Assembly (NCBI GenBank): GCA_016929395.1
Contig: JAFGIX010000047.1
Coordinates: 1 to 39,205 of the forward strand
From: Candidatus Zymogenus saltonus
Lineage (GTDB): Bacteria; Desulfobacterota; Zymogenia; Zymogenales; Zymogenaceae
Direction: 5' to 3'
Length of the DNA: 39,205 bases
Part shown: one piece after another, positions 10,692-38,480 of the stretch
Numbering within the stretch: position 1 is the first letter of the stretch
How the letters are laid out: each line of letters starts with the position of its first letter
The notes under the pieces: model-generated
Databases searched by the model: none
The model's input: the letters and a program-made list of their open reading frames with translations, nothing else
Told to the model about the DNA's origin: nothing
Made by a program: the position numbers and the translations under genes

Positions 10692-12749
10692 CTATGTTAA
10701 TGCCTTATTTAGGGTCTCGATGTCGTAAATCGGGGCCCTGCACGCGTAGCCCTCGCAGATGTAGGCCGCGGGCTTATCACTTGCCATATCCATATTCGAC
10801 AGGAACAGGGAGATCTCTGACAGCTCCTTTAAGTCACCATCGCTAAGGGCGTGGATCAAGACCTTATTTGGGATGAACCTCCTCTGTACCGACTCCACCA
10901 TTCCCCTCGTTATCGGATTATCCGGATAGCCCGAGATGACTATCTCCCTTGACGGCCCCATCAAAAAATCCAGCGCCTCGAGAAACTGGGTGTAGGCGTG
11001 AGGGTCCCGCCCGACTGTCGGCAGAAACGATCTTATCAGCTCCTCCGCCCTCTCCTCAAGCCTGACGTCTCCCGTTATCTTCGCGAGCCTCAGCAGATTT
11101 TTAGCCGCCACGGAGTTTCCTGACGGCGTCGCCCCGTCGTATATCTCCTTCTTCCTTATGATCAGCTTCTCCCCGTCGTTTCTGGAGAAGAACAATCCAC
11201 CACCGTCTTCGTCCCAGAAGAGACCGAGCATGACATCGTTTAGGGCCACCGCCTCCCTCAAGAAGTCGATTCGGAATTCGGCCTCGTAAAGCTCGACCAA
11301 CCCCCAGACAAAGAAGGCGTAGTCGTCTACGAATCCCGGGAATGCCGCCTCCCCGTTCCTGAAGCGCCTCTTTAGTCTCCCCCCTTTTGATTTGAGGTTA
11401 TTCAGGACGAAAAGCGCCCCCCTTTCGGCCGCATCTAGATAATCGCGGTCCCCAAGGGCCTGATACCCCTTGGCCAGGGCGGCCACCATAAGGCCGTTCC
11501 ACGCCGTTATGATCTTATCGTCCTTTAAGGGCTTCGCCCTCTTCTCCCTCACGGCATGAAGCCTTGCCCGAGAACCATCTATAAATTTCTTAAAGTCCCC
11601 GACATCGATACCCTCCCTCTCCGCAAACTCCCCCATCGGAGTCTTGACGTTGGGGATGCTCATCCCGTCCTCGAAGTTCCCCCCATCCTTAATATCGTAA
11701 AAGCGGCAGAAGAGATCTCCGTCTTTCTCCCCCAGAACGTCTCTGACCTCGCCCGGAGTAAATAGGTAGAAGAGGCCCTCCCTCCCCTCGGTGTCGGCGT
11801 CCTCCGCGGAATAGAAGCCCCCCTCTGGAGACGTCATATCCCTCAAAACGTAGGTAAATATCTCCCGCGCCGTCTCTGCGAACCTCGCATCACCCGTGAC
11901 CTGAAAGGCCTCGATATAGACAACGGCGAGGAGCGCCTGATCGTAGAGCATCTTCTCGAAGTGGGGGACAAGCCACCTCTCATCCGTGGAGTAGCGGTGG
12001 AAGCCGAAGCCGACCTGGTCGAATATGCCGCCACCCCTCATTTCGTCGAGGGTCTTTACGACCATCTCGAGGGCGAGCTTGTCGCCGCTCCTCTTATACC
12101 AGCGGAGCAGAAACGTGAGGCGGTGGGGCACTGGAAACTTTGGTGCCCGGCCGAATCCTCCCCGATTCTTATCAAATATGTCGGCAATTCCCCTGTAGGC
12201 CTTTTCCATGATTGCCGATTCCGGCGCGGCCTCGCCAACGGATTTTAGGGAATCACTCCTTAAAAGGCTCGTAACGTCCTCTCCCACCTTAACGAGACGT
12301 CCCCGATCGTCCCGCCACAGGGCCGCAATCTCCGCTATAATATCTATAAATCCAGGCATCCCCATTCTACCCCTCTTGGGAAAATATGTTCCGGCGTAAA
12401 AGGGCTTCCCTTCGGGAGTCATGAATATCGAGAGGGGCCAGCCGCCGCTTCCGGTCATGGCGTGGCAAACCGTCATGTAAATATTGTCTATGTCGGGGCG
12501 CTCCTCCCTGTCCACCTTTATCGAGACGAAGTGCTCGTTCAATATCCCGGCCAGATCGGCGTCTTCAAAGGACTCTTTCTCCATGACGTGGCACCAGTGA
12601 CAGGTTGAATAGCCTATGGAGAAGAAGATCGGCTTGTCCTCGTCCTTCGCCTTTCTGAACGCCTCGTCACCCCAGGGATACCACTCCACGGGATTTTCCG
12701 CGTGCATAAGGAGGTAGGGACTCTTTTCCTTTTTTAGACGATTTGTCAT
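10692..12749 (-). CDS. YyaL/SSP411-family protein (DUF255 thioredoxin domain plus glycosidase-like barrel)
   Basis: The 685-residue product begins with the conserved [19 protein letters not shown] and WYPWGDEAF segments, then a thioredoxin-fold domain with CHWCHVME (C50, C53), [10 protein letters not shown] and [11 protein letters not shown]. From about residue 170 an alpha/alpha six-hairpin region resembling glycosidases or N-acylglucosamine epimerases follows, with YDQALLA and [11 protein letters not shown]. The family is widespread and its biochemical role is not settled. The length is normal. The ATG at 12749 gives the conserved N-terminus; a TTG four codons upstream has no better site. 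It follows flavodoxin by 43 bases, which suggests co-transcription and a redox context. Confidence 0.85.
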
Positions 12750-12792
12750 TTCATCTTCCAAATTTTTTCAGCTTCTTCTGCCCGGCAATAAG

Positions 12793-25076: not shown

Positions 25077-25316
25077 CTATTCCTTCATCATGCCGCTTCC
25101 GCACTCCGGGCATTTCTGTTGAAAGCAGGGAACCCCCCGCTGATGGGGCGATTTGGTCCCGCACTTGGGGCACACACAGTTTCCCCCCGGCCCCGATCCG
25201 GGCCTGTTTCCTCCCCCCGCACCCCCTCCGCCTCCACGGCCCGCTCCTACCCCCCTGCCGCCCCCGGCACCTCCTCCGCCGCCTCCGGCACCCTGTCCCC
25301 TTCCACGTGCATTCAT
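25077..25316 (-). CDS. Gly/Arg-rich small protein with C-terminal zinc ribbon
   Basis: A 79-residue protein. Residues 1-46 are almost only Gly, Ala and Arg and probably unfolded. The tail has CVCPKCGTKSPHQRGVPC and then CPECGSGM, two CXXC knuckles plus further cysteines, which should bind zinc or iron. Small proteins of this build are usual beside NifX-like and Mrp genes in anaerobes; no function is established. AAAAGGAGAT precedes the ATG. It sits between two NifX-like genes. Confidence 0.8.
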   Translation of the reverse strand: MNARGRGQGAGGGGGGAGGGRGVGAGRGGGGGAGGGNRPGSGPGGNCVCPKCGTKSPHQRGVPCFQQKCPECGSGMMKE

Positions 25317-25344
25317 TTTTATCTCCTTTTATATTTTCGGTTTA

Positions 25345-25731
25345 CTATTCGCCGCATCCGTCGTCATGGTCGTGAGCGCAGGGAACGGTCCCCTTGACCC
25401 TTCCGGCAAGGTATGCCTTCAGGATATCCTCGATCTTTCCGGCATAACCGGTTACCACCTCTATGCCCATTCCGTTAAAAAGCTCGATTGCCCTGGGCCC
25501 CATCCCTCCGGCGATCATCACATCGGCCCCGAGCGACTGGATGAATTCCGGCATTATCCCCGGCTGGTGGTTGTTGAAGTGGGGATTTTCGACCACCTCG
25601 ACATCGCCCGCCGACAATTCCACGGCGTCATTGAAATCCGCGACAACATAATATGGGCATCTCCCGAAATGGGCCGAGAGCCTCCCATCAAGCCCCAGAT
25701 TGTCCTCCGAAGCCATCACTATTTTTTTCAT
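25345..25731 (-). CDS. NifX-like metal-cluster protein (second copy)
   Basis: A 128-residue NifX/NifB-C-terminal-like protein with SAHFGRCPYYVV (about 19-30), NPHFNNHQPG, MIAGGMGPRAIELF and a His/Cys-rich tail (PCAHDHDDGCGE) that may bind metal. Of the three copies here this is closest in motif layout to the Orp orange-protein type. It follows Mrp by 23 bases and so is very likely co-transcribed with it. Cluster identity (Mo-Cu, Fe-S or other) is unknown. Confidence 0.87.
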   Translation of the reverse strand: MKKIVMASEDNLGLDGRLSAHFGRCPYYVVADFNDAVELSAGDVEVVENPHFNNHQPGIMPEFIQSLGADVMIAGGMGPRAIELFNGMGIEVVTGYAGKIEDILKAYLAGRVKGTVPCAHDHDDGCGE

Positions 25732-25754
25732 GAGTTTTTATTCTCCTGTTACTT

Positions 25755-26660
25755 TCAAGTTTTTGCTTTTTTTCGCACCTTTCCGACATCGAGCCTTTTC
25801 ATGAGAGAATCCATTATATCAGAAAAGGCCGAAAACGTCTCCGAATCCCTCAAATATCTGACAAATGGCCTCCCCGAATCGCCGCTCTCCATAATCTCCG
25901 TATCGACAGGTATCCTTCCGAGAAACGGGACGCCCATCTCTTTGGCCGCCTTCTCGCCGCCCCCAACCTTGAAGAGGTTTATCTCCTTTCCGCAGTGGGG
26001 GCATTTGAATCCGCTCATATTCTCGACTATACCCAGTACGGGAACATTAAGCCTCTTGGAGAAGTTGACCGATTTCCTGCTGTCCAGAAGCGCCACATCC
26101 TGGGGGGTGGTGACAACGATCGAGCCTTCCGACGATCCGATCAGCTGCGCCACCGAGAGGGGCTCGTCGCCCGTTCCGGGGGGTAGGTCGACTATCAGGA
26201 AATCGAGGTCTCCCCAGTTTACTTCCCCAAGAAACTGTTTGATGACACCGTGCTTCATTGCCCCCCGCCATATCACGGGGGTATCCCGATCCTCCAGAAG
26301 ATACCCCACGGAGATGACGGAAAGGCCCTCCATGACCCTTACAGGGATAATCCCCTCTTCGGAGCCGCGGAGCCTCTCGTCCTCCAGTCCCAGCATCTTC
26401 GGGATGTTCGGGCCGTGTATGTCCGCATCCAGAAGGCCGACTTCAAAGCCCTCCATCGCGAGAAAGACCGCGAGGTTCGCGGCGACGGTGGATTTTCCCA
26501 CGCCCCCCTTTCCGCTCATCACCATGATCTTTTTGCCGATGCGGCCGAGCCTCATTTTTAAGAGATCCTCAGCATGTCTCTCCTTATCTTTCTCGGTGCA
26601 GCTCTCGCTTGCGTTACATGTGCTGCATGTCGAATCTTTATCGCACTCTTTATTGCTCAT
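25755..26660 (-). CDS. mrp: Mrp/ApbC-type Fe-S carrier ATPase
   Basis: A 301-residue Mrp/NBP35-family ATPase. The N-terminus has a Cys cluster (C6, C12, C15, C21), then GKGGVGKS (50-57), [10 protein letters not shown] (78-87), [11 protein letters not shown] (157-167), [10 protein letters not shown] and the cluster-bridging pair C220/C223 in FKCPHCG. It would carry [4Fe-4S] or related clusters between scaffold and target. The upstream in-frame sequence has stops, so the ATG at 26660 is the only good start, although the ribosome site is weak. The leader carries a row of short repeats. It is followed by NifX-like and zinc-ribbon genes, in the order seen in Orp-type loci. Confidence 0.92.
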
Positions 26661-26665
26661 ATATT

Positions 26666-26743
26666 TACCAATTTCATCAATGTCACCAATGTCTCACCAA
26701 CGTCACCAATCTTTCACCAATACCCCGCCAATTCCCCGGCAAT
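26666..26743 (-). repeat. degenerate ATTGGTGA repeats in the mrp leader
   Basis: On the minus strand the motif (A)TTGGTGA occurs four times, with two or three weaker relatives (ATTGATGA, ATTGGTAA, ATTGGCGG), at steps of about 10-12 bases. The spacing is near one helical turn. It ends only a few bases before the ATG of mrp. Confidence 0.55.
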
Positions 26744-26923
26744 TACATATCTTTGCCCGATCTCCTTTGAAAAGCCGGATGTCCGCCCCGTCCCGCCTTT
26801 TTGTCGAAAAAAAGGAGTCGAGAAAAGGAAAACTGAGCGAGGGAGGCAAAGATCGTACTCCTCCCTCGCCCCCCCCCCCAACGCCCCCTCACACATCCTC
26901 ATGCCCCCCCACTCAAAACAGCC

Positions 26924-27307
26924 TTATTTTTTCTCCTCAGCGGAAAGCTCAGAGAGCCTCTTCTCCATAGTCTCCATTTCCATCCTGATCCCCTTGAGCT
27001 GACCTTCTATGAAGGCCCTTTCCTGTTCGGGATTCTGCGAGTATGGCGTGCCGTATCCCGTCCCGTATCCCGTGCCATATCCATATACCGGGGGCGCGTA
27101 CCAGCGCCCTCCGCCTCCCCTTCCCCAGGCCATGCCGCGGCCCATCCCGCGGCCCCGGCCTCCGCCAAATCCCATACCCCTCCCCATGCCGAATCCTCCA
27201 GCTCCCGGATTGGCATAACCCGGCGCATCGTATCCGGCACAGAAACCCATTCCCCTTCCGGTCATCGGCCCCATCCCCTGGGGACCTGTTCTGTCTCCCC
27301 TCGGCAT
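26924..27307 (-). CDS. DUF5320-like Gly/Arg/Met-rich protein with C-terminal coiled coil
   Basis: A 127-residue protein. It starts MPRGDRTGPQGMGPMTGRGMGFC, the hallmark opening of small proteins that accompany NifX-like genes in anaerobes. The middle is a run of Gly-Arg-Met and then Tyr-Gly-Thr repeats (GYGTGYGTGYGT). Residues about 92-127 form a charged helix suited to a coiled coil (ERAFIEGQLKGIRMEME onward). Function is unknown; a partner of NifX-like or Mrp proteins is possible. The ATG at 27307 has GGAGG eight bases upstream; the GTG three codons earlier would overlap that site. Confidence 0.8.
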   Translation of the reverse strand: MPRGDRTGPQGMGPMTGRGMGFCAGYDAPGYANPGAGGFGMGRGMGFGGGRGRGMGRGMAWGRGGGGRWYAPPVYGYGTGYGTGYGTPYSQNPEQERAFIEGQLKGIRMEMETMEKRLSELSAEEKK

Positions 27308-28090: not shown

Positions 28091-29434
28091 CTAAATGAGG
28101 CCGTACTCCTTCATCTTCCTCCACAGGGTTACCTTGGTCATCTTCAAGGCCCTGGCGGTCTTGACCCGGCTTCCGTCGTAACGGGAGAGGCACTCGGCTA
28201 TCATCTGTCTCTCCTTGTTTTTCAAGCCCTCCTTCAACGACGAAGAGCCGCCGTCGGCGACGACCGCCTTGCCCGCCAACTCTCCGGGGAGGTTCTCCCT
28301 GGTGATAACGCCGTCCCTGCAGAGGATCACGGTGTGCTCGATGATATTCTCGAGCTCCCTCACGTTTCCCGGAAAATCGTACCTCATCAGGAAATCCAAC
28401 ACATCATCCGAGATCTCCTTGATATCCTTTCCCATCCTGATGGACATCTTGTCGATGAATTGTTCCACAAGGAGCGGAATATCCTCCCTTCGCTCCTTCA
28501 GCTCCGGCAGGGCTATCCTGACTATGTTCAGCCTGTAGTAGAGATCCTCCCTGAAGTTGCCGGATTGCACCTCCTCGGTCAGGTTCCTGTTCGTGGACGC
28601 AATAATCCTCACATCGGCGTTTACGCTCTTGACCGATCCGAGGGGCTCATACTCCCTCTCCTGGAGGACTCGAAGCAGTTTGACCTGAAGGGTCTTCGGC
28701 AGGTCCCCGATCTCGTCGAGGAGCAGCGTCCCGCCTTTTGCCATGGCAAAGCGCCCCGGCTTGTCCTTAACCGCATTGGTGAAGGCCCCCTTTACGTATC
28801 CGAAGAGCTCCGACTCCAGGAGGTTCTCCGGGAGGGCGGACGAGTTGACGGCGACAAACGGCCCCGACTTCCTGTGGGAGAGGTTATGAATCGCCCTGGC
28901 GAAGAGCTCCTTTCCCGTACCGCTCTTCCCCTCGATCAAGACCGTGCTGTCGCTCTCCGCTATATCGGGAAGGATATCGAATATCTCCAATATCTTCTTG
29001 TTCTTGCTAATAATGTCCTCAAAGGTGTACTGGGCCTTTACCTCCTTTTTCAGCTCCTCGATGTAGGACAGGTCGCGAAAGGTCTCCACCCCGCCCATTA
29101 CCTCCCCGTCCTTGTCCCTCAAGACGGCCGTGCTTATCGAGACCGGCACCTTCTGTCCCACGCCGTTTATGATGTCTATCTTCTGGTTGATGATCTCGAT
29201 TCCGGTCGAGATGGACCTCCTCAGGGCGCAGTTCTGGGTGCAGATGCTGGCGTGAAAGATATCGCTGCAGCTCCTGCCGATCGCCTCCTTTCGGGAGATG
29301 CCGGTTATCCTCTCGGCGGCGGTGTTAAACGACGTTATCTTCCAATCCCTGTCAACGGTGAAGACGCCGTCTGCTATGCTTCCGAGAATGGTATCGACAA
29401 ATCTGTCCCTGTTTCCGTTATCCGTTTTAGCCAT
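28091..29434 (-). CDS. PAS-AAA+-Fis sigma-54-dependent transcriptional activator
   Basis: A 447-residue enhancer-binding protein. Residues 10-125 form a PAS domain with Cys residues C56, C65 and C69 (ICTQNC), which may sense redox state or hold a cluster. The AAA+ domain has a Walker A variant GKSGTGKE (169-176), a sigma-54 contact loop GAFTNA (216-221; usual GAFTGA), Walker B LLLDEIGDLP, the R-finger region REDLYYRLN and DFPGNVRELEN. A Fis-type helix-turn-helix ends the protein (SRVKTARALKMTKVTLWRKM). The ATG at 29434 fits a leaderless transcript. It lies between the ornithine operon and the Orp-like cluster; the analogous Desulfovibrio orp operons are driven by such an activator, so the cluster is the favoured target. 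Confidence 0.9.
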   Translation of the reverse strand: MAKTDNGNRDRFVDTILGSIADGVFTVDRDWKITSFNTAAERITGISRKEAIGRSCSDIFHASICTQNCALRRSISTGIEIINQKIDIINGVGQKVPVSISTAVLRDKDGEVMGGVETFRDLSYIEELKKEVKAQYTFEDIISKNKKILEIFDILPDIAESDSTVLIEGKSGTGKELFARAIHNLSHRKSGPFVAVNSSALPENLLESELFGYVKGAFTNAVKDKPGRFAMAKGGTLLLDEIGDLPKTLQVKLLRVLQEREYEPLGSVKSVNADVRIIASTNRNLTEEVQSGNFREDLYYRLNIVRIALPELKERREDIPLLVEQFIDKMSIRMGKDIKEISDDVLDFLMRYDFPGNVRELENIIEHTVILCRDGVITRENLPGELAGKAVVADGGSSSLKEGLKNKERQMIAECLSRYDGSRVKTARALKMTKVTLWRKMKEYGLI

Positions 29435-29440
29435 GGTTTC

Positions 29441-29469
29441 ATTATAGCAAAACAGTTTCAATTATGCAA
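29441..29469 (-). promoter_or_regulatory. promoter of the sigma-54 activator gene (leaderless)
   Basis: Minus-strand TTGCAT (29464-29469), a 17-base spacer and TATAAT (29441-29446) extended by TGC. Only six bases separate the -10 from the ATG at 29434, so the expected transcription start is the A of the ATG itself. There is no Shine-Dalgarno sequence. Confidence 0.65.
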
Positions 29470-29658: not shown

Positions 29659-31710
29659 TTATCCCCTCCTTTTGACGATCTTCTTGCCGAACGCGGAGAG
29701 GATAAACTCCACGGCGACCTGGGCCGTTGAGTTGTCTGCGTCCCGTTCCGGATTGATGCCCACCACCCCCAGTGCCACCATGAGGCCGGACTGGGCAACG
29801 AGCTCCATGGCGAGGTGGGTCTCTCGATATGTTATCCCCCCCCGAATGGGGGTGTCAACGCCCGACGCCACTTGGGAGTCGACGACGTCCATCCCCAGGC
29901 TGACGTAGATCCCCCCCGTCCCGCTTCCGGCGGCCCTGAGTCCCTGATAGATCGTCTCCTTCATGCCGAGGTTGTCTATGTCCTCCATCGTGAATATCCT
30001 GATCCCCGATTCGGAGATGAGATCGGCCTCCTCCTGGTCGATGTCGCGAAGCCCTATAATGGCTACGTTTTCGGGGGAGAGCTTCGGCGATATCCCCCCC
30101 ATCTTGAAGAGACGCTCGTTCCCCCCCTCCCCGTGAAAGCCGAGAGCATGGGCCAAGACCGAGCTGGTGATCCTCTCCCCCATTTCGTCTCCTCCGCCGC
30201 TTCCCCGATCATCTTTCCCCGAAATCTTAAAGTCGCCGTGGGCATCGAGCCACATGAGGCCGAAGGGGCCAATGATTCTCGCGAGTCCCAGAAAGACGCC
30301 GAAGCTCGCCGTGTCGTCCCCCCCGAGGATCAGGGGGACAAGCTTGCCTTTTATCGCCTCTTCCACGAAAGTAGCCGTCTCCTCAGAAATCCTCACGATC
30401 TCGCTCACGTTTTCATCGTAGTCGCCTCCGGATATGGCCTCGTCAAGCCGGACATCACCCCGATCATCCACGGTCAGGGCCAAGGATTTGAGCCTCTCCA
30501 CAAGCCCCGCGTCCCTGACGGCCCTGGGGGCGTGTCTCACGCCTGGGGATAGAGACCCCACCCAGCTCGGAACCCCGATGACGGCAACTCCCTTTAGATT
30601 GTCCAAATCCCCCTCCTTGGACACCATTTGTTTCTCCACATAAGAAGAGGTCATCGCGGCGAGGAGCGAGGCGTAGTTCATCAGAAATCCGAGCCTCATG
30701 CCAAGCTCGATCTCGCCCTTGGCCGTGGTAACGTCGACGATGAGGTGGTCGCTGGAGGCCCCGATGATCTTAAGCCTGTCGTCCACGGGGAAAAGCCCCT
30801 CTATCTCCACGTCCTCCCGCCCCACGTTCAAGATCGCTCTTGCCATCTCCCGCTTTGCTCCCTTGAAGGAAGATGAGGTGAAGTCAAAGGCGGGCTTATG
30901 CCCGAAGGCGTCCTGGCTTATCTCCCCAATCGGGACCCCGGGCTTATCCTTGAGCTCGATTACCTCCGCCTTAAGCATAAAGGCGTCCTGGGCAGTCCCG
31001 GGCCAGGGCCTCCTCTCTATCGTCTCTCGGCCTAAAAGGATCGCCTCTCCTATCCTCATGTTATTGACCCTCTTCGGCATCCCCCCTTCGCTGATGAGGG
31101 TGAGGGCGCTGGAGTTTCCCCCCGATATATATTTCAGCTCTATTCCGAACCTCCTCTCTATCTCGTCGGCGTAATCGACCAGAAGCCCCATGTTTTCCCT
31201 TGTGGGGATCACGCCGCCGTAGCAGCTGAGGTTGGTGCCCAAACCGACTATTCTGACCCCCTGAAAAAGCGCCACCTCCTTCACGGTGGGTATCAGGTCG
31301 TCCGGCCAGATTCCCTCCCTCAGGTCGCCGAGATCGACCATCAGGATTATGTCGTGGACTATTCCCCTCCTTATTCCCGCCTCGGAGAGCGCCCGGATCA
31401 CCGACAGCTCCGAGTTGAGGCTGATGTCGACCGAGACCACGACCTCGTCCGCCTCGGAGAGGGATGGGATGCGAAGGAGCATGATCGGGGCGTTTATGCC
31501 GTTGACCTTGAGGCGGCGGACGTTTTCCATCCTCGATTCGCCGATCCCCACGACCCCTCCCTTTATCATCGCCCTTGCCGCCTGGGGCATCCCGCAGGTC
31601 ACCTTGGTGACGCCGAAAACCTCGATGCCGAATCTCCCGCAGAGATCGGTGACCGCGCGAGCGTTCTCCTCGATCTTTTCAAGGTCTACCGTTACCGAGG
31701 GATTTGTCAT
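29659..31710 (-). CDS. orr: ornithine racemase fused to a degenerate arginase-fold domain
   Basis: A 683-residue fusion. Residues 1-370 are a PLP alanine/ornithine racemase-type barrel with the cofactor lysine in FGVTKVTCG, then GIGESRMEN, LGTNLSCYGG and ISGGNSSAL; it should interconvert L- and D-ornithine, the first step of the pathway. Residues about 378-683 match arginase throughout (LILGGDD, WLDAHGDF, TPIRGGITYRETHLAME). Metal ligands D489, H491, D493 and D608 are kept, but the GGDH His is D466, the HGMPL His is T515, the first Asp of SxDxD is G606 and the VEVNP Glu is G651. Arginase activity is therefore doubtful. The ATG lies two bases after the preceding stop. Confidence 0.87.
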   Translation of the reverse strand: MTNPSVTVDLEKIEENARAVTDLCGRFGIEVFGVTKVTCGMPQAARAMIKGGVVGIGESRMENVRRLKVNGINAPIMLLRIPSLSEADEVVVSVDISLNSELSVIRALSEAGIRRGIVHDIILMVDLGDLREGIWPDDLIPTVKEVALFQGVRIVGLGTNLSCYGGVIPTRENMGLLVDYADEIERRFGIELKYISGGNSSALTLISEGGMPKRVNNMRIGEAILLGRETIERRPWPGTAQDAFMLKAEVIELKDKPGVPIGEISQDAFGHKPAFDFTSSSFKGAKREMARAILNVGREDVEIEGLFPVDDRLKIIGASSDHLIVDVTTAKGEIELGMRLGFLMNYASLLAAMTSSYVEKQMVSKEGDLDNLKGVAVIGVPSWVGSLSPGVRHAPRAVRDAGLVERLKSLALTVDDRGDVRLDEAISGGDYDENVSEIVRISEETATFVEEAIKGKLVPLILGGDDTASFGVFLGLARIIGPFGLMWLDAHGDFKISGKDDRGSGGGDEMGERITSSVLAHALGFHGEGGNERLFKMGGISPKLSPENVAIIGLRDIDQEEADLISESGIRIFTMEDIDNLGMKETIYQGLRAAGSGTGGIYVSLGMDVVDSQVASGVDTPIRGGITYRETHLAMELVAQSGLMVALGVVGINPERDADNSTAQVAVEFILSAFGKKIVKRRG

Positions 31711-31712
31711 TT

Positions 31713-33098
31713 TCAGGCCCCCTTTTGATCAAGACCAAGGCTCATCTTCAGGGAGGAGAGAGCGCACTCCGGGTGTTTCTTTACCATCACCCCCGCCGCC
31801 GCCATTATGTAGTTGCTGTCGATAGAGACCTCGGCGTCCCCGGGCGGCAGGAGCTTTTTGTCCCTGATGTCCCTCCTGATCGATTTCAGGATGTCCCGGC
31901 CGCCATCGAGGCGGCAGAGCGCCCCCCCCGTTCCGATGATGCTTTTCACAGCCGTCAGGTCCCTCCCCTCGACAAGCTCGCTTCTCCCGAACGTCCCGTA
32001 GGCGACCTTTATCTCCCCGGCGTGGCGCCAGACGGCGAGGTCCACGGCCCATTTGCAGAGCAGGGATGTCCTCTTTACCTCCTCCTCATCCGTGGGAATT
32101 GGAGCTAACCCGTCTATACCGCCTTCCGCCGCGTCGACCGCTCCCCCCCCCCATTCCGCCGTGCTCATCTGTGACTGCTTCAGGATATTCTGAGCGTTGT
32201 GGAAGACTCCCAGGTCACCCTCCACCGTCCTCTTCGCCAGCGGCTCCGGGGCCGTCATCAGCCTTGTAAGTTTCGGGGAGCCGGATGTCACCGAGTGGAC
32301 GTCGGTGGTGGCGCCCCCCACGTCCACAACCATCAGGTCTCCGATCTCATCGTAAAGAAGCTCCGAGGCCGCCATCACCGCCCCAGGGGTCGGCATAACG
32401 TCCCCTTGAACCATCTCCTTTACCCTCTCCATCCCCGGGGCGTTGATTATGTGATCCGAGAAGGCCCGCTGGATAATCTCCTTTACCGGCTTCAGGTTCA
32501 GCTCGTCAATCCTCGGATAGACGTTGTCGCATGTCAGAAGCCTGAGTCGGCTCTCGCCAAAGATCCTCTCGATCTCCCCCTTGGCGCTCACGTTCCCGGC
32601 GTAGATGATTGGGATATTAAGCCCTATCGCTGAGAGGATTCTGGCGTTTTTTACAATCACGTCGCGCTCGCCGTAGTCGACGCCGCCGGCCAGAAGTATC
32701 AGCCTCGGCGACACCCTCTCTATCTCGGCGATGTCCTCATCCCTTATCTCTCCCACGGTGGTGTAGACGACGACCGCCCCCGCCCCCAGCGAGGCCTCGC
32801 TGGCGGCCCTGAGCGTCATGTCGCGGGTAAGCCCGTGGACGGTCATCTTGAGGCCCCCGGCGGCTGATGAGGCGGCCATCAGATTCGCCCCCTCGGTCTC
32901 AATCCCAAGGCGGGATTTGAGGTCTTCCATCGCCCTCGTGAGGCCGACCGTCACGTCCCCCTCGTCAACCGTCGTAAGGGATACCCCCTGTCCCAAAAAA
33001 GGGGCGGGAGAATCCCCTCCCCCCCCCTTCAGATCGAACGCCGAGAGCTTCGTTATCGTGCTCCCGATCTCCGCCACCAGTAAATCGGCCCTCCTCAT
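31713..33098 (-). CDS. GlmL/MutL-like reactivating ATPase for the B12 aminomutase
   Basis: A 461-residue ASKHA-fold protein with an actin-like phosphate-1 motif AEIGSTITKL near the N-terminus, a second nucleotide motif VVDVGGATTDVHSV near 250 and IIGTGGALCRL near 390. This family (methylaspartate mutase accessory protein GlmL) is found beside B12-dependent carbon-skeleton or amino mutases and is thought to reactivate them by exchange of damaged cobalamin. The gene lies between oraE and orr exactly as in clostridial ornithine clusters, so ornithine aminomutase is the probable client. Spacing is 11 bases from oraE and two bases to orr. A GlmS mutase gene is absent. Confidence 0.87.
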   Translation of the reverse strand: MRRADLLVAEIGSTITKLSAFDLKGGGGDSPAPFLGQGVSLTTVDEGDVTVGLTRAMEDLKSRLGIETEGANLMAASSAAGGLKMTVHGLTRDMTLRAASEASLGAGAVVVYTTVGEIRDEDIAEIERVSPRLILLAGGVDYGERDVIVKNARILSAIGLNIPIIYAGNVSAKGEIERIFGESRLRLLTCDNVYPRIDELNLKPVKEIIQRAFSDHIINAPGMERVKEMVQGDVMPTPGAVMAASELLYDEIGDLMVVDVGGATTDVHSVTSGSPKLTRLMTAPEPLAKRTVEGDLGVFHNAQNILKQSQMSTAEWGGGAVDAAEGGIDGLAPIPTDEEEVKRTSLLCKWAVDLAVWRHAGEIKVAYGTFGRSELVEGRDLTAVKSIIGTGGALCRLDGGRDILKSIRRDIRDKKLLPPGDAEVSIDSNYIMAAAGVMVKKHPECALSSLKMSLGLDQKGA

Positions 33099-33109
33099 CC
33101 TTAAAACCG

Positions 33110-35323
33110 TCAGACCTCCCCCCTGAGCCTCTTGACTATCAGGCTCGCCACGTTGTGGCCCTTCGTCCCCCTGCCGAAGCCGGCGTCCATCCCGGACTCT
33201 TTTGCGGTATCGTCGGTCACCTGCGTCCCCCCGGCAATGAGTATCAGGTCCTTCCTCAACCCCCGCTCAACGGCGAGATCGGCGAGCCTCCTCATGTTCA
33301 CCCTGTGTATGTCGTTGTGGGTGATGATGGTGGAGATGAGGATAATCTTAGAGCCTGTCTCCACGGTGGCGTCGATGAGCTTCGCGACCGGAACCGAAGT
33401 CCCGAGGTAGTGGCAGACAAAGCCGTACTTTTCGATCCCGCCGTGCTTTATATCAATGATCTCCCGCATCCCGACGGAGTGCTCGTCCTCCCCCACCGTG
33501 GCGGCGACGACCGAGACGTTTCTCTTTCTGATGTACTCCCTTATCTCGTCCTCTGCGACCAGCACCTCTTTTTTCGGGATCACGAGGTCCGCCCGTTTGA
33601 CGGCGAAGTCCAGTCTCCCCTTCACCTCGAAGAGGGTCCCCTCGGCCGGGTGCATCACCCTCCTGTGGATGACCTCAGGGTCTTTCAGCCCCATTTTCAC
33701 AGCCATCAAAAGGGCCGCCGCCTCCCCCACGTCGGGCGCTTCCGGGATCATCACCGTCACGCAGACCACCCCGTCGCCCGCCCACTCCACCTCCGGGCGG
33801 ATGAGGCCGGCCTCCTTTTCCTTTAACGGCGTCTCGAGGCGCCTCGCGACGTTGTCCTCCTCGTCCAGCTCGTCGATGTAGACGATCTTTCCGGGTTCGC
33901 AGAGGGTGCAGCCGTCGATCAAATCGCACGGCTTTTTCAGCTCCTCGGGGAGATGATTCTCGCCGAAGTGGCAGCAGACCGGGGCCATGTAGTCCGTCTC
34001 TCTCTCTACGATGCTTCCCGCCGCCACGCCGCCGTCGGCCGCCCTCTTTATCCCGTCGCCGACCCTCTCCGGGAAGTTGCCGGAGTCTACGAAGTGCCCC
34101 CCCTCCACCGCCGCGAAGTATCCCCCAATCTCCACGATCTCCTCTAAGAACAGCACCGCCCGCTCCTTTATCTCCCGAACCCTCCCGTCGAGGACGGGGT
34201 CTCCCTTCAGCTCCAGCATATCGGTCAGCCCGTCCACGCCCATCAGCGTCTGGCGGGCGGTGTTTACGCCGAGGACGTTGTTGTAGTGCCAGGGGACGTT
34301 TCTCCCCTCGTCCGGGGTGATGGTGCTCTGGATGTCTGCCGAGGTGAGCCGGGAGATCAATGTGTCCAGGACGTGGGTGATGGTGGCCTCCGCCGTGTCC
34401 GACTCCATGTAGCGGGTGTTCTGCTGCGCCCTAAACTTGAAGCCGTCAAAGAAGTCGCGCAGGGCGACGGCATACGGCAGGTCGATAGAGAGCTTCGGGG
34501 CCGGGGGCGCCGTCGGGGGAACGGTGGAGAGGGCGATGTTTTCTTTTGCCATCCCCGCAGCCAGGGAGAAGGCTGAGTTTATCCCATGCTGGACGAGAAG
34601 CTCCGGCATCACCTTCCACGCCTCCCTCGCCGTGGCGTTGGCGTTGTGGGCGCCGTCTATCTGGAGGATACCGGCGTCAGCCATCAGCGCCTTTGCGCAC
34701 GCGGCGTCCACAAACGAGCGGTGCATGTTGATGTTCCTGTAAAGAACGTTGTACTGGGGGTCCTGGTGGGCGCCGTTCACCCCCTCCTCGTTGAAGAGGA
34801 CGGCCATCTCCGGCCCGGCCACCCCGCTGACGTAGGAGTGAAAGTTGATCGGCCTTCCCACCTCCTCCTCGATCAGGTCGAGGGCCTTCCTCGACGCCCT
34901 GATCTGCTTTCTGCTGATCGGCACACCCCCCACCCCCTCCGGGGTTCCCTCGATCAGGCCGTCGAAGTGGGACTGGCCGGTAGTCCTTATCACCATGATG
35001 TGGTCCGCCCCGTGCCACGCGGCCATCCGCATCCTTCTGATGTCGTCCTCGAAGTGGCCGGAGGCGATCTCGGTAGTAATCACGAAGTCGCACTGGGGGT
35101 CGATGCCACCGAAATAATGGGCGGAGGGGAGGGGGACGGAGTTTTTCAGCCCCTCGGATGTGTCCCTGTACACGAACGGACCGATCTTCTGATTCGGGCT
35201 AATCTTCCTCCACGTCCACCCCTTCCTCTTGGGACGGTAGTCGGAAAGCCCCTCGATGATTTTTGCCACGTCTATCTTCTTGTCGGCCTCGAGCTTTATG
35301 GATCGCTTCATCGGTCGCCTCAT
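33110..35323 (-). CDS. oraE: D-ornithine 4,5-aminomutase, large E subunit
   Basis: A 737-residue PLP- and adenosylcobalamin-dependent subunit that shifts the terminal amino group of D-ornithine to give (2R,4S)-2,4-diaminopentanoate. The TIM-barrel part has EGTPEGVGGVPISRKQ and HGADHIMVIRTTGQSH. The C-terminal B12 domain has DEHSVG with H615 as candidate lower cobalt ligand and K626 in IDIKHGG as candidate PLP lysine. This 11-residue spacing equals that of H618 and K629 in the Clostridium sticklandii enzyme. GGTQVTDDTAKESGMDAGFGRG closes the domain in two segments. The ATG overlaps the oraS stop as ATGA. An in-frame ATG four codons later is also possible. Confidence 0.95.
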   Translation of the reverse strand: MRRPMKRSIKLEADKKIDVAKIIEGLSDYRPKRKGWTWRKISPNQKIGPFVYRDTSEGLKNSVPLPSAHYFGGIDPQCDFVITTEIASGHFEDDIRRMRMAAWHGADHIMVIRTTGQSHFDGLIEGTPEGVGGVPISRKQIRASRKALDLIEEEVGRPINFHSYVSGVAGPEMAVLFNEEGVNGAHQDPQYNVLYRNINMHRSFVDAACAKALMADAGILQIDGAHNANATAREAWKVMPELLVQHGINSAFSLAAGMAKENIALSTVPPTAPPAPKLSIDLPYAVALRDFFDGFKFRAQQNTRYMESDTAEATITHVLDTLISRLTSADIQSTITPDEGRNVPWHYNNVLGVNTARQTLMGVDGLTDMLELKGDPVLDGRVREIKERAVLFLEEIVEIGGYFAAVEGGHFVDSGNFPERVGDGIKRAADGGVAAGSIVERETDYMAPVCCHFGENHLPEELKKPCDLIDGCTLCEPGKIVYIDELDEEDNVARRLETPLKEKEAGLIRPEVEWAGDGVVCVTVMIPEAPDVGEAAALLMAVKMGLKDPEVIHRRVMHPAEGTLFEVKGRLDFAVKRADLVIPKKEVLVAEDEIREYIRKRNVSVVAATVGEDEHSVGMREIIDIKHGGIEKYGFVCHYLGTSVPVAKLIDATVETGSKIILISTIITHNDIHRVNMRRLADLAVERGLRKDLILIAGGTQVTDDTAKESGMDAGFGRGTKGHNVASLIVKRLRGEV

Positions 35324-35664
35324 GGGTCAATATCCTCCCAGTATTTTCCCTCGATAAGCCCCAACCCCGCGCTCCTGACGTCGACCTTGTTCTTTTGGGC
35401 GACCCGATAGACGATCCCCCCCGCCCCGCAGCCGAGGAGTCCCCGCTCCGAGATATTTGTCACAAGTCCCTTCGCCTCGATGCTCGAAAATCCCATCCTG
35501 AGAAGCACAGACCGCTCGATGGAGGGTGAGGTGTGGGTCCTCGCCTCCTCCACTATCGGCTCGACTATCTTGTTCAAAAGCTCCCAGAAGCGGTCCTTGA
35601 GCTCCTCGTCCGACAGTCCCTTTAACCTCTCCCGCCTCTGTTCGTAATCGTCGCCTCTCTCCAT
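35320..35664 (-). CDS. oraS: D-ornithine 4,5-aminomutase, small S subunit
   Basis: A 114-residue helical subunit that pairs with OraE. It has the family pattern RRERLKGLSDEELKDRFWEL near residue 10 and then SIERSVLLRMGFSSIEA, GLLGCGAGGIVYR and a C-terminal GKYWEDI. Length and order next to oraE agree with known operons. It starts 31 bases after ortB and its stop overlaps the start of oraE by four bases (ATGA), so equal translation of both subunits is likely. Confidence 0.93.
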   Translation of the reverse strand: MERGDDYEQRRERLKGLSDEELKDRFWELLNKIVEPIVEEARTHTSPSIERSVLLRMGFSSIEAKGLVTNISERGLLGCGAGGIVYRVAQKNKVDVRSAGLGLIEGKYWEDIDP

Positions 35665-35695: not shown

Positions 35696-37108
35696 CTATT
35701 TCAGGCCGACCGCCTCCCTCACGCAGTCGGGGGTCGTCTTCGTATCTTCGGCCAGAAACCTGATCTCGTCATCTGTAATCTTTTCCCTGTCCTCGATACT
35801 TTCGAGGGCGTTTTTGTAGTACGATTTTCTGAGCCTTTCGAGGTCTACGTCAACAGCTTTAATCTGCGACGGATCCTCCGGGATTACGATCCTCACTCCG
35901 GGTACGTTCTCCTTAGGATTACCTCTCCTTACCTCTATCCCCATCCTTTTCGCGAGATTCAGCTGGGCTATGGGGTGCTTGCCCGCCCCGGTGTACTCGG
36001 TCTCCTGGACAACCACGATCTCATCCTCCCCCATCTCCCGCGCTACCGCAAAGGCCGCGGCCAGAGACGTGTTTCCCGCAGGCCCCCGCTCCATCCCCTC
36101 AAGCTCCGCCAGCGCCTGGGTAATGTAGAAGACCTCCCCCTGGGTCACCGTAACGAACCTGTCCATATATCTTAAGGGGCGGGCGGCGTTTTTCGGGACG
36201 TCCGCCCGGTCGGGCCAGGTGGCGAAGGGTATCCCGAAGCCGGTGTGCCCGGTGGTGAACGACTTCCGGTTGAAGTCGGTGTCCGACGCCATGTGGAGGC
36301 CCGAGAGGTCGACACTCGCGGCAACCAGCTTTGTGTCGGACGCCCCCGCCTTTATGAGCCCCCTGCCGGTGCCGGTGACGTTCCCCCCGCCGGCGTGGGT
36401 GGCGACGACGACGTCCGGAAAGCGCCCCTCCCTCTCCTTTATTTCCTTCGCCACTTCAAAGCCCAGTGTCTCTATCCCCAGGACGGAAAAGGGGGTGTAG
36501 AGGGAGGCGTTGAAGTAGCCAGTCTCTATGAGGATAAGGAGGAAGACGTAGAAAAGCTCCGGGCCGACGGAGAGCCTGATCACCTCCGCCCCGTACGCCT
36601 CGCACGCTCTGGTCTTCTCCGCTATCTCAGGCTGGGCGATACCCCTTCCGTCGAAGGCCTCCTGGACGATAATTGCGGGAAGCCCCTTCTTCGCCGCCTG
36701 GGAGGCGACGGCCGCCCCGTAGTTCCCGCTGGTGGCGGCGCTTACCCCCGGATACCCCTTCTTCCACGCCTCGTAGATAGACACTGAGGCCCTGCGGTCC
36801 TTGAAGGAGCCGGAGGGATTCTGCGCCTCGTCCTTCACGAATATGCGCCCACCCTTGCCTGGGTTGGAGACGGCCCTTACGAGGGCGGTGATGTTCTTCA
36901 GTTCGACCAGGGGGGTGTTTCCCACCGCCGTCTCTGACTGTATCTCGAAAACCCTTTCCAGGTCGTAGCCGGTCTTCGTCATCATCCCCTCGTAGTCGAA
37001 GGAGACGGGGCCGGTCTTGAAGGCGTCGTAGTCGATCCCCACCGAGCTCTTCATCACCTCCCCCTTCTTCGCCATGACGGCGTCGTAGCCCATATCGGCG
37101 GCGCTCAT
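35696..37108 (-). CDS. ortB: 2-amino-4-oxopentanoate thiolase, PLP (beta) subunit
   Basis: A 470-residue fold-type II PLP protein related to threonine synthase. The cofactor lysine is K103 in NPSGSFKDRRAS, the phosphate-binding part is THAGGGNVTGTG, and SAATSGNYGAAVA is also conserved. With OrtA it cleaves 2-amino-4-oxopentanoate with CoA to D-alanine and acetyl-CoA. A fragment ETEYTGAGKHPIAQLN near residue 373 is typical of OrtB. The ATG overlaps the ortA stop as ATGA and has a GGAGGAGGGG site upstream. The length is as expected. Confidence 0.94.
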   Translation of the reverse strand: MSAADMGYDAVMAKKGEVMKSSVGIDYDAFKTGPVSFDYEGMMTKTGYDLERVFEIQSETAVGNTPLVELKNITALVRAVSNPGKGGRIFVKDEAQNPSGSFKDRRASVSIYEAWKKGYPGVSAATSGNYGAAVASQAAKKGLPAIIVQEAFDGRGIAQPEIAEKTRACEAYGAEVIRLSVGPELFYVFLLILIETGYFNASLYTPFSVLGIETLGFEVAKEIKEREGRFPDVVVATHAGGGNVTGTGRGLIKAGASDTKLVAASVDLSGLHMASDTDFNRKSFTTGHTGFGIPFATWPDRADVPKNAARPLRYMDRFVTVTQGEVFYITQALAELEGMERGPAGNTSLAAAFAVAREMGEDEIVVVQETEYTGAGKHPIAQLNLAKRMGIEVRRGNPKENVPGVRIVIPEDPSQIKAVDVDLERLRKSYYKNALESIEDREKITDDEIRFLAEDTKTTPDCVREAVGLK

Positions 37109-37434
37109 CTTCCCCTCCTCCTCATATCGCCCTCCTTGCCTATGATCTTCTTTACCTCCCTCCCGATGGAGATGAGCTCCGGGATCGGCTCGCCGAAGCC
37201 GTGGTCATAGGGGGGGTTTACCGCCGTGAGTTTCCCAGAAACAACCCTTCCCACAGCGGTCGTTATCTCGACCTCGTCCCCCATCCCGGCGTCGTCGTTC
37301 AGGTAGCCCTTGACCCTCATCTCGAGGGGGACCTTCTTCGTGTCCTCAGGCACCTGGGGGGCGCGCTCCCCGGGTTCAAGGACAATCCTGTGGACCTCGA
37401 CCCAGCTCCCCTCCTTGACCATCTTATCCATCAT
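37105..37434 (-). CDS. ortA: 2-amino-4-oxopentanoate thiolase, alpha subunit
   Basis: A 109-residue small subunit. It begins VKEGSWVEVHRIVLEPGERAP (in two segments) and contains PLEMRVKGYL, GDEVEITTAVGRVVSG and NPPYDHGFGEPIPEL, all characteristic of OrtA. It has no cofactor site of its own and works with OrtB. The start ATG overlaps the ord stop by four bases, and the stop overlaps the ortB start by four bases, so the three genes are translationally coupled. Two ATG codons occur in tandem at the start. Confidence 0.93.
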   Translation of the reverse strand: MMDKMVKEGSWVEVHRIVLEPGERAPQVPEDTKKVPLEMRVKGYLNDDAGMGDEVEITTAVGRVVSGKLTAVNPPYDHGFGEPIPELISIGREVKKIIGKEGDMRRRGR

Positions 37435-38480
37435 TTTCCCCCTTTGATCATCTCCCTCACGTCCCCCATTATGGCTGCGGGAACCGGCATATCCGCCATC
37501 GTCATTAGCCCAGGGGGAGCGTTAATCACCTTGGGGATCATGTTTACCGAGAGGGCCACCGTCCCCACGCCCCCCGGAATCTCCGGGGAGCCGGAGAATG
37601 AGACATCGGGCACCCCCTTTATATCGATATAGTCGCCCGTGACCACACCCTCGAGATGGGGGTGAATCTGCTGCGGGTGGTCGAGGATTATGGCCGCCTT
37701 TTCCCCCATGTACCCAATGCCCCTGTGGTGGCAGCCGCAGGTCATCCCCGGCTCCACCTTAATAAACTTCGTCTCCCTCTTGACACTACTTATGATAGGC
37801 TCCCTTGTCTGCTCTATCCTGTCTATCTTCCACCCCAGGGCCTTTCCGATCATGCCGATCGACTCCGGAAAGCCGAAGTGCCCCACCACCGAGCCGTCCT
37901 CGATCCCCTTCTGAAACTCTTCCGGGATTATCCCCACACCCTGGGTCCTCAAAACGGAGGGGCCATAGGGGGAGAGGTCGTTCACCCTCCTTGCCGTGAT
38001 CGAGTGCACCTCGCTGCAGACGCCGGTCAGAGCTATGACGAGGAGGTCCAGCACGAACCCGGGGTTGATCCCCGTTCCTAAGACCGTGACCCCGGTATCC
38101 CTGGCGAGTCTGTCGATCTTTTCCGAAAGCTCCGGCGAGCCGTAGTGGGGGAAGCTCATCTCCTCGGCGATGGAGACGACGTTTATCCCGTGCCTTAAGG
38201 CCGTCTCGATCTCGCCGAAGGCGTCCTTTACGGTCGAAGTCGTGCACTGGACGACCGCATCGGGGGAAGAGCTTTTGAAGAGCTCCCCGGCGTCGGAGAA
38301 GACCCTTATCCCCAGCGGCTTATCCCTGCCTAGTATCTCCCCCACGTCCTTTCCGTTCCGATCCGCCCTCTTCGAAATCACCCCCACAAGCTCCATACCC
38401 TCCTTTTTGAGGATCAGCTCTATCGCGCCGCTCCCCATCTGTCCCGTTCCCCACACGGCAACCTTTACTCTACCTGTCAC
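37431..38480 (-). CDS. ord: (2R,4S)-2,4-diaminopentanoate dehydrogenase
   Basis: A 349-residue NAD(P)-dependent dehydrogenase of the dihydrodipicolinate-reductase-like fold. The Rossmann motif VAVWGTGQMGSGA starts at residue 7. Further marks are VVQCTTS, GTGINPGFVLDLL, RVNDLSPYGPSVLRTQG, HFGFPESI and GMTCGCHHRG. It oxidatively deaminates 2,4-diaminopentanoate to 2-amino-4-oxopentanoate, yielding ammonia and reduced cofactor. It heads the operon although it acts after the aminomutase. The start is GTG with AGGAGG seven bases upstream. A promoter with palindromes lies about 100 bases upstream. Confidence 0.94.
   Translation of the reverse strand: MTGRVKVAVWGTGQMGSGAIELILKKEGMELVGVISKRADRNGKDVGEILGRDKPLGIRVFSDAGELFKSSSPDAVVQCTTSTVKDAFGEIETALRHGINVVSIAEEMSFPHYGSPELSEKIDRLARDTGVTVLGTGINPGFVLDLLVIALTGVCSEVHSITARRVNDLSPYGPSVLRTQGVGIIPEEFQKGIEDGSVVGHFGFPESIGMIGKALGWKIDRIEQTREPIISSVKRETKFIKVEPGMTCGCHHRGIGYMGEKAAIILDHPQQIHPHLEGVVTGDYIDIKGVPDVSFSGSPEIPGGVGTVALSVNMIPKVINAPPGLMTMADMPVPAAIMGDVREMIKGGK

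Follow-up and report, generated by a model that had tools for sequence, protein, structure and literature searches.

An ornithine racemase fused to a probably non-catalytic arginase domain in an oxidative ornithine degradation operon of Candidatus Zymogenus saltonus

Described arginase-family pseudoenzymes and the fused racemase

Catalytically dead domains of the arginase family are already known, and their roles are mostly unexplained. The closest precedent for the protein discussed here, when compared by description, would be the ODC/arginase of Fusobacterium (Oda; Mothersole 2022). Its arginase domain is reported to be dead through replacement of metal-ligand Asp residues, and to be conserved with an unexplained role (PMC12826042, PMC11271267). 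MetCb, a subunit of metformin hydrolase, is an arginase-family pseudoenzyme without a metal site that acts as a protein binder within a hexamer (PMC11271267). In Trypanosoma brucei, an arginase-like protein (PDB 4RHI, Hai 2015) is reported to have an arginase fold that evolved without a binuclear manganese site.

Here we describe a gene from Candidatus Zymogenus saltonus, located in a stretch of 39,205 nucleotides (positions 1 to 39,205 of contig JAFGIX010000047.1; hereafter the window). Its product is best read from its sequence as an ornithine racemase (Orr) with a C-terminal arginase-fold domain that would no longer hydrolyse arginine. As reported for Oda, an N-terminal PLP-dependent ornithine enzyme would thus be joined to a C-terminal, catalytically dead arginase domain. 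Unlike in Oda, the enzyme is a racemase rather than a decarboxylase, the pathway is ornithine fermentation instead of putrescine synthesis, and the gene lies in an operon, whereas oda is reported to be monocistronic. MetCb differs in being a separate subunit paired with an active ureohydrolase, the partner here being a fused PLP racemase, and the T. brucei protein in being free-standing and eukaryotic. The RocF arginases of Bacillus caldovelox (Bc) and B. subtilis share the short C-terminus and the interface residues and are the best match in sequence and fold; unlike our protein, they are active and unfused, with all catalytic residues in place. The racemase domain and its operon partners ord-ortAB-oraSE resemble those of the clostridial-type Orr (NF040742), which is free-standing, whereas an arginase domain is attached here. 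Within the open-access literature (subscription journals lay outside the scope of the search), no description of a racemase with a fused arginase domain was found. The preliminary description of this locus knew of no earlier account of the architecture; the search agrees for the racemase version, but the statement has to be qualified by the close analogue in Fusobacterium.

The orr-ARG fusion gene (29659..31710, minus strand) is a single, uninterrupted open reading frame of 683 amino acids that matches both the Orr and the arginase profiles. The racemase domain comprises residues 1-362 (30625..31710, minus strand) and matches NF040742 over residues 3-362 (E 3e-125), covering the full profile (1-351 of 351) with 418 bits, which falls below the strict 'exception' cut-off of 480. 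It is thus an Ala_racemase_N/Orr domain and not an ornithine decarboxylase. The candidate PLP lysine, K36 in VTKVTCG, is present in all 24 fusions that we aligned. The arginase-fold domain spans residues 374-678 (29677..30591, minus strand). Here, Pfam Arginase (PF00491) matches over 374-673 with 174 bits, and the arginase family TIGR01229 (rocF) over 377-677 (E 6e-52), its 176.9 bits falling short of the equivalog cut-off of 227.6 bits. In sequence, the closest proteins of solved structure are Bacillus arginases. The full-length AlphaFold2 model has a mean pLDDT of 54 and is usable for the arginase part only, so that this domain was re-modelled alone. The resulting model (pLDDT 77.8, pTM 0.83) has the arginase alpha/beta fold, with Bc arginase (2cev) as its top PDB match (TM 0.83/0.88).

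The fusion gene is the last of an ord-ortA-ortB-oraS-oraE-or4-orr operon for oxidative ornithine degradation, a pathway in which the D-ornithine used by the OraSE mutase is known to come from Orr. All genes of the operon lie on the minus strand. It begins with the 2,4-diaminopentanoate dehydrogenase ord (37431..38480; NF040740, 499 bits), followed by the two genes for 2-amino-4-oxopentanoate thiolase, ortA (37105..37434; NF040739, 140 bits) and ortB (35696..37108; NF040741, 800 bits). The small and large subunits of D-ornithine 4,5-aminomutase are encoded by oraS (35320..35664; PF16552, 163 bits) and oraE (33110..35323; NF040743, 1299 bits), and or4 (31713..33098; NF040744, 581 bits) encodes a GlmL/MutL-related ornithine degradation protein. 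In each of the 15 loci that we checked, including the window, or4 is directly upstream of the fused gene, and oraE precedes or4 in 14; the exception (G198) carries an aminotransferase gene in that place. Just beyond the fusion gene lies a sigma-54 regulator with a PAS domain (28091-29461, minus strand), whose best match is PrdR-like/NifA-like; two other genomes (G002 and G003) have a TrmB-like regulator at the downstream position instead. Elsewhere in the window, a 689-codon open reading frame (10692-12761, minus strand) had no family match in the NCBIfam scan, and a 605-codon frame (25153-26970, plus strand) without a Pfam match runs opposite other frames and may not be a gene.

Erosion of the active site and retention of the subunit interface

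Catalytic residues were mapped by alignment to the arginases of B. caldovelox (1cev) and B. subtilis (6nfp). Bc H99, D122, H124, D126, H139, D226, D228 and E271 correspond to D466, D489, H491, D493, T515, G606, D608 and G651. D466 (30313..30315; all codons in this section are on the minus strand) replaces the metal-ligand His of GGDH, T515 (30166..30168) the catalytic His of HGMPL, and G651 (29758..29760) the substrate-binding Glu of VEVNP. In G606-M-D608 (29887..29895) the bridging Asp is gone and D608 is kept, as are the ligands of the DAHGD motif, D489-x-H491-x-D493 (30232..30246). The window protein therefore has four of the six arginase metal ligands (GGDH, DAHxD, SxDxD). The alignment gives the same four changed and four retained positions as the preliminary description, which had also recognised the fusion itself.

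The same erosion is seen, to differing extents, throughout the 24 aligned fusions. None of these has the substrate Glu. The catalytic His is likewise missing in every one, a single H in one spirochaete copy (L060) being an alignment coincidence outside the HGMPL context. At the eight catalytic positions, the fractions of fusions with the arginase residue are 0.12, 0.58, 0.46, 0.21, 0.04, 0.29, 0.54 and 0.00, values that include the most eroded spirochaete copies, whose alignment is uncertain near the lost catalytic motifs. Between six and one of the metal ligands remain: five in G003, four in G000 and G001, and one to three in the spirochaete fusions. Only G002 keeps all six; its protein (L008:1501-3513) is the least eroded fusion and has likewise lost the catalytic His and the substrate Glu. 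Shifted residues that could supply the metal ligands were not seen in the 24-sequence alignment. None of the eight catalytic residues is lost in the ten free-standing arginases that these searches also yielded.

Strong purifying selection continues to act on the arginase domain. In the closest pairs, its dN/dS is 0.04-0.08, against 0.02-0.08 for Orr; over close pairs in general it is 0.04-0.09, similar to the racemase domain. Mean pairwise identity among the fusions is 0.38 for the arginase domain, against 0.63 for Orr. Over the 74 positions that do not vary among the ten arginases, the fusions show a mean retention of 0.48. This value falls to 0.28 for the eight catalytic positions and rises to 0.98 for four positions of the trimer/hexamer subunit interface (D579, R629, E630 and E636). 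That four random positions among the 74 would be equally well kept has P about 0.001, a value that is descriptive because the four were picked from the arginase literature after their conservation had been noticed.

These four residues lie in two kept motifs. TMEDIDNLG (574-582; 29965..29991) contains D579, equivalent to Bc D199 and human D204 and present in 22 of the 24 fusions. GGITYRETHLAME (624-636; 29803..29841) contains R629, E630 and E636, equivalent to Bc R249, E250 and E256 and human R255, E256 and E262, which are present in all 24. Retention of the D199, R249, E250 and E256 equivalents is thus 0.92, 1, 1 and 1. The mapping is based on sequence alignment and on a published description of the interface (PMC7925462). 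According to the latter, Arg308 of human arginase pairs with Glu262, and in the rat enzyme also with Asp204 of the adjacent subunit; Bc arginase stops before Arg308, and free L-arginine binds in that place (PMC7925462). By alignment, the fused proteins terminate at FGKKIL, also before any Arg308 equivalent. As judged from these comparisons, what remains conserved is the set of subunit-interface residues of arginase, among them two acidic ones at the free L-arginine site of Bc arginase. Since the same residues are conserved in active arginases too, they support quaternary structure as much as arginine binding. Two spirochaete fusions (L058 and L060) read TMEEIS and TMEDIS, with Ser at the D199 position, which suggests that the arginine pocket may not be universal and may be lost there.

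Because catalytic residues are lost clade-wide, the domain remains under purifying selection and the interface residues are kept, the assignment of the arginase domain as a pseudoenzyme is strongly supported by the sequence comparisons.

Distribution and history of the fusion

A genome search first identified full-length fusions in a second Candidatus Zymogenus and in one spirochaete MAG. The fusion is present in all four Candidatus Zymogenaceae genomes searched, and in one genome of another family of the window's phylum (G198). Of the 198 genomes around the spirochaete MAG, 21 encode the two domains in a single frame, which in G441 is cut at a contig end; in two further genomes the copies are fragmentary or run into a contig end. 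When 296 genomes were drawn more widely from the phylum of the spirochaete MAG, several free-standing racemases were found, and fusions only in G297 and G368, which indicates that the fusion is concentrated in part of that phylum. One locus (L046) has a long open frame upstream of an arginase, in which no second domain was found. Racemase-ureohydrolase fusions, for which a profile search had been proposed in the preliminary description, thus occur in two phyla, with the substrate Glu and the catalytic His lost throughout. An assembly error that joined two genes is excluded by the presence of the fusion in more than 20 independent assemblies. This conserved two-phylum family and the oxidative ornithine operon around it are both missing from the earlier account.

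The fusions form one clade in the tree of the arginase domain (support 100/100) and in that of Orr (92/93), lying on one side of a branch in each. Their nearest relative in the Orr tree is a free-standing Orr (L088 in genome G045), which is encoded in an ord-ortA-ortB-oraS-oraE-orr operon without or4. This free-standing Orr in the same type of operon indicates that racemisation does not need the arginase domain.

Going by the trees and the alignment, the simplest history would be a single old fusion event, followed by early loss of the Glu and the His and by separate decay of the metal site. The fusion, with a bacterial-type arginase, would predate the split between the Zymogenaceae and spirochaete copies. 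As no copy found has the substrate Glu or the catalytic His, these two were probably lost first, after which the metal site would have decayed lineage by lineage. The fusion family offers a natural gradation of the metal site, from all six ligands to one, in which the domain is still fused and conserved. Such a series separates what catalysis needs from what the retained role needs, and points to the subunit interface and the arginine pocket. The candidate residues named here bear on the same question in the Fusobacterium ODC/arginase.

Possible roles of the arginase domain and the supply of arginine

We propose, with a probability of roughly 0.6, that the arginase part of an old fusion has become a non-catalytic oligomerisation domain of the racemase, possibly one that senses arginine. 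The fused racemase would supply D-ornithine to the OraSE aminomutase of the same operon, and the arginase domain would persist because its subunit-interface surface is used. Judging from the residues that are kept, oligomerisation via the arginase interface is the most likely role. This would place a trimeric domain on a probably dimeric racemase. More speculatively, the interface pocket, which is the free L-arginine site in Bc arginase, may let arginine tune the assembly or activity of the racemase.

Arginine could also be central to the role of the domain. It is possible, and we put it forward tentatively, that the domain is an arginine (or ornithine) sensor, in which free L-arginine bound in the pocket switches the racemase so that ornithine is degraded only in the presence of ample arginine. 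The acidic pocket residues D579 and E636 are kept while the active site erodes, and the fusions have their C-terminus at the point where, in Bc arginase, the site is accessible to free arginine. Moreover, arginine is the upstream substrate in the spirochaete fusions, whose operons lie near arginine deiminase and ornithine carbamoyltransferase genes. However, active arginases use these residues for trimer formation, and the D199 equivalent is missing in two fusions. That the dead domain is an allosteric arginine receptor, which re-used the inter-subunit activator site once the active site had been abandoned, seems to us rather doubtful; if it were true, the arginine level would gate entry into ornithine fermentation. 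A scaffold or sensor, as put forward in the preliminary description, fits the sequence data well, and the kept interface pocket would make an arginine sensor the more specific proposal.

A docking scaffold, in which the dead domain would hold Orr at OraSE or Or4 so that D-ornithine is channelled, is unlikely. The constant arrangement of or4 and oraE just ahead of the fusion gene and the precedent of MetCb as a protein-binding pseudoenzyme (PMC11271267) speak for it; the best-kept surface, however, is the arginase self-interface and not a new one, and the pathway of G045 has a free Orr in an operon without or4. Even less probable is a decaying passenger domain with no present role. The arginase domain does evolve faster than Orr and is shortened in spirochaetes, but its low dN/dS in close pairs, its persistence across two phyla and its sharply conserved C-terminal motifs argue otherwise. 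A hydrolase still active through changed chemistry or a single metal, at least in the Zymogenaceae with their four to six ligands, is very improbable, since the catalytic His and the substrate Glu are gone from all 24 fusions and the spirochaete copies keep the domain with one to three ligands, which also disfavours the 'new hydrolase' of the preliminary description.

Arginine deiminase is found in 18 spirochaete-related fusion genomes with 457-485 bits, all just below the TIGR01078 cut-off of 489, and two re-scored copies pass that of NF002381. Ornithine can come from arginine without an arginase in these genomes. A universal replacement of arginase by the deiminase is ruled out, as the enzyme was not found in G000-G003 (Zymogenaceae), G198, G297, G315 and G424. 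The genome of the window encodes ornithine carbamoyltransferase and one agmatinase-like protein; the latter is its only other PF00491 protein, which speaks against an active arginase elsewhere in that genome that would make the domain redundant. In the majority of the other fusion genomes, a further PF00491 protein is either absent or free-standing. In ten of the 18 deiminase-positive genomes the deiminase is encoded on the fusion's own contig, sometimes adjacent to it, and genes for ornithine carbamoyltransferase or carbamate kinase are found near the fusion in several spirochaete-related genomes. The fusion operons of L084, L082, L087, L081 and L078 adjoin arginine deiminase, ornithine carbamoyltransferase or carbamate kinase genes, which suggests a joined locus for the arginine deiminase pathway and ornithine fermentation.
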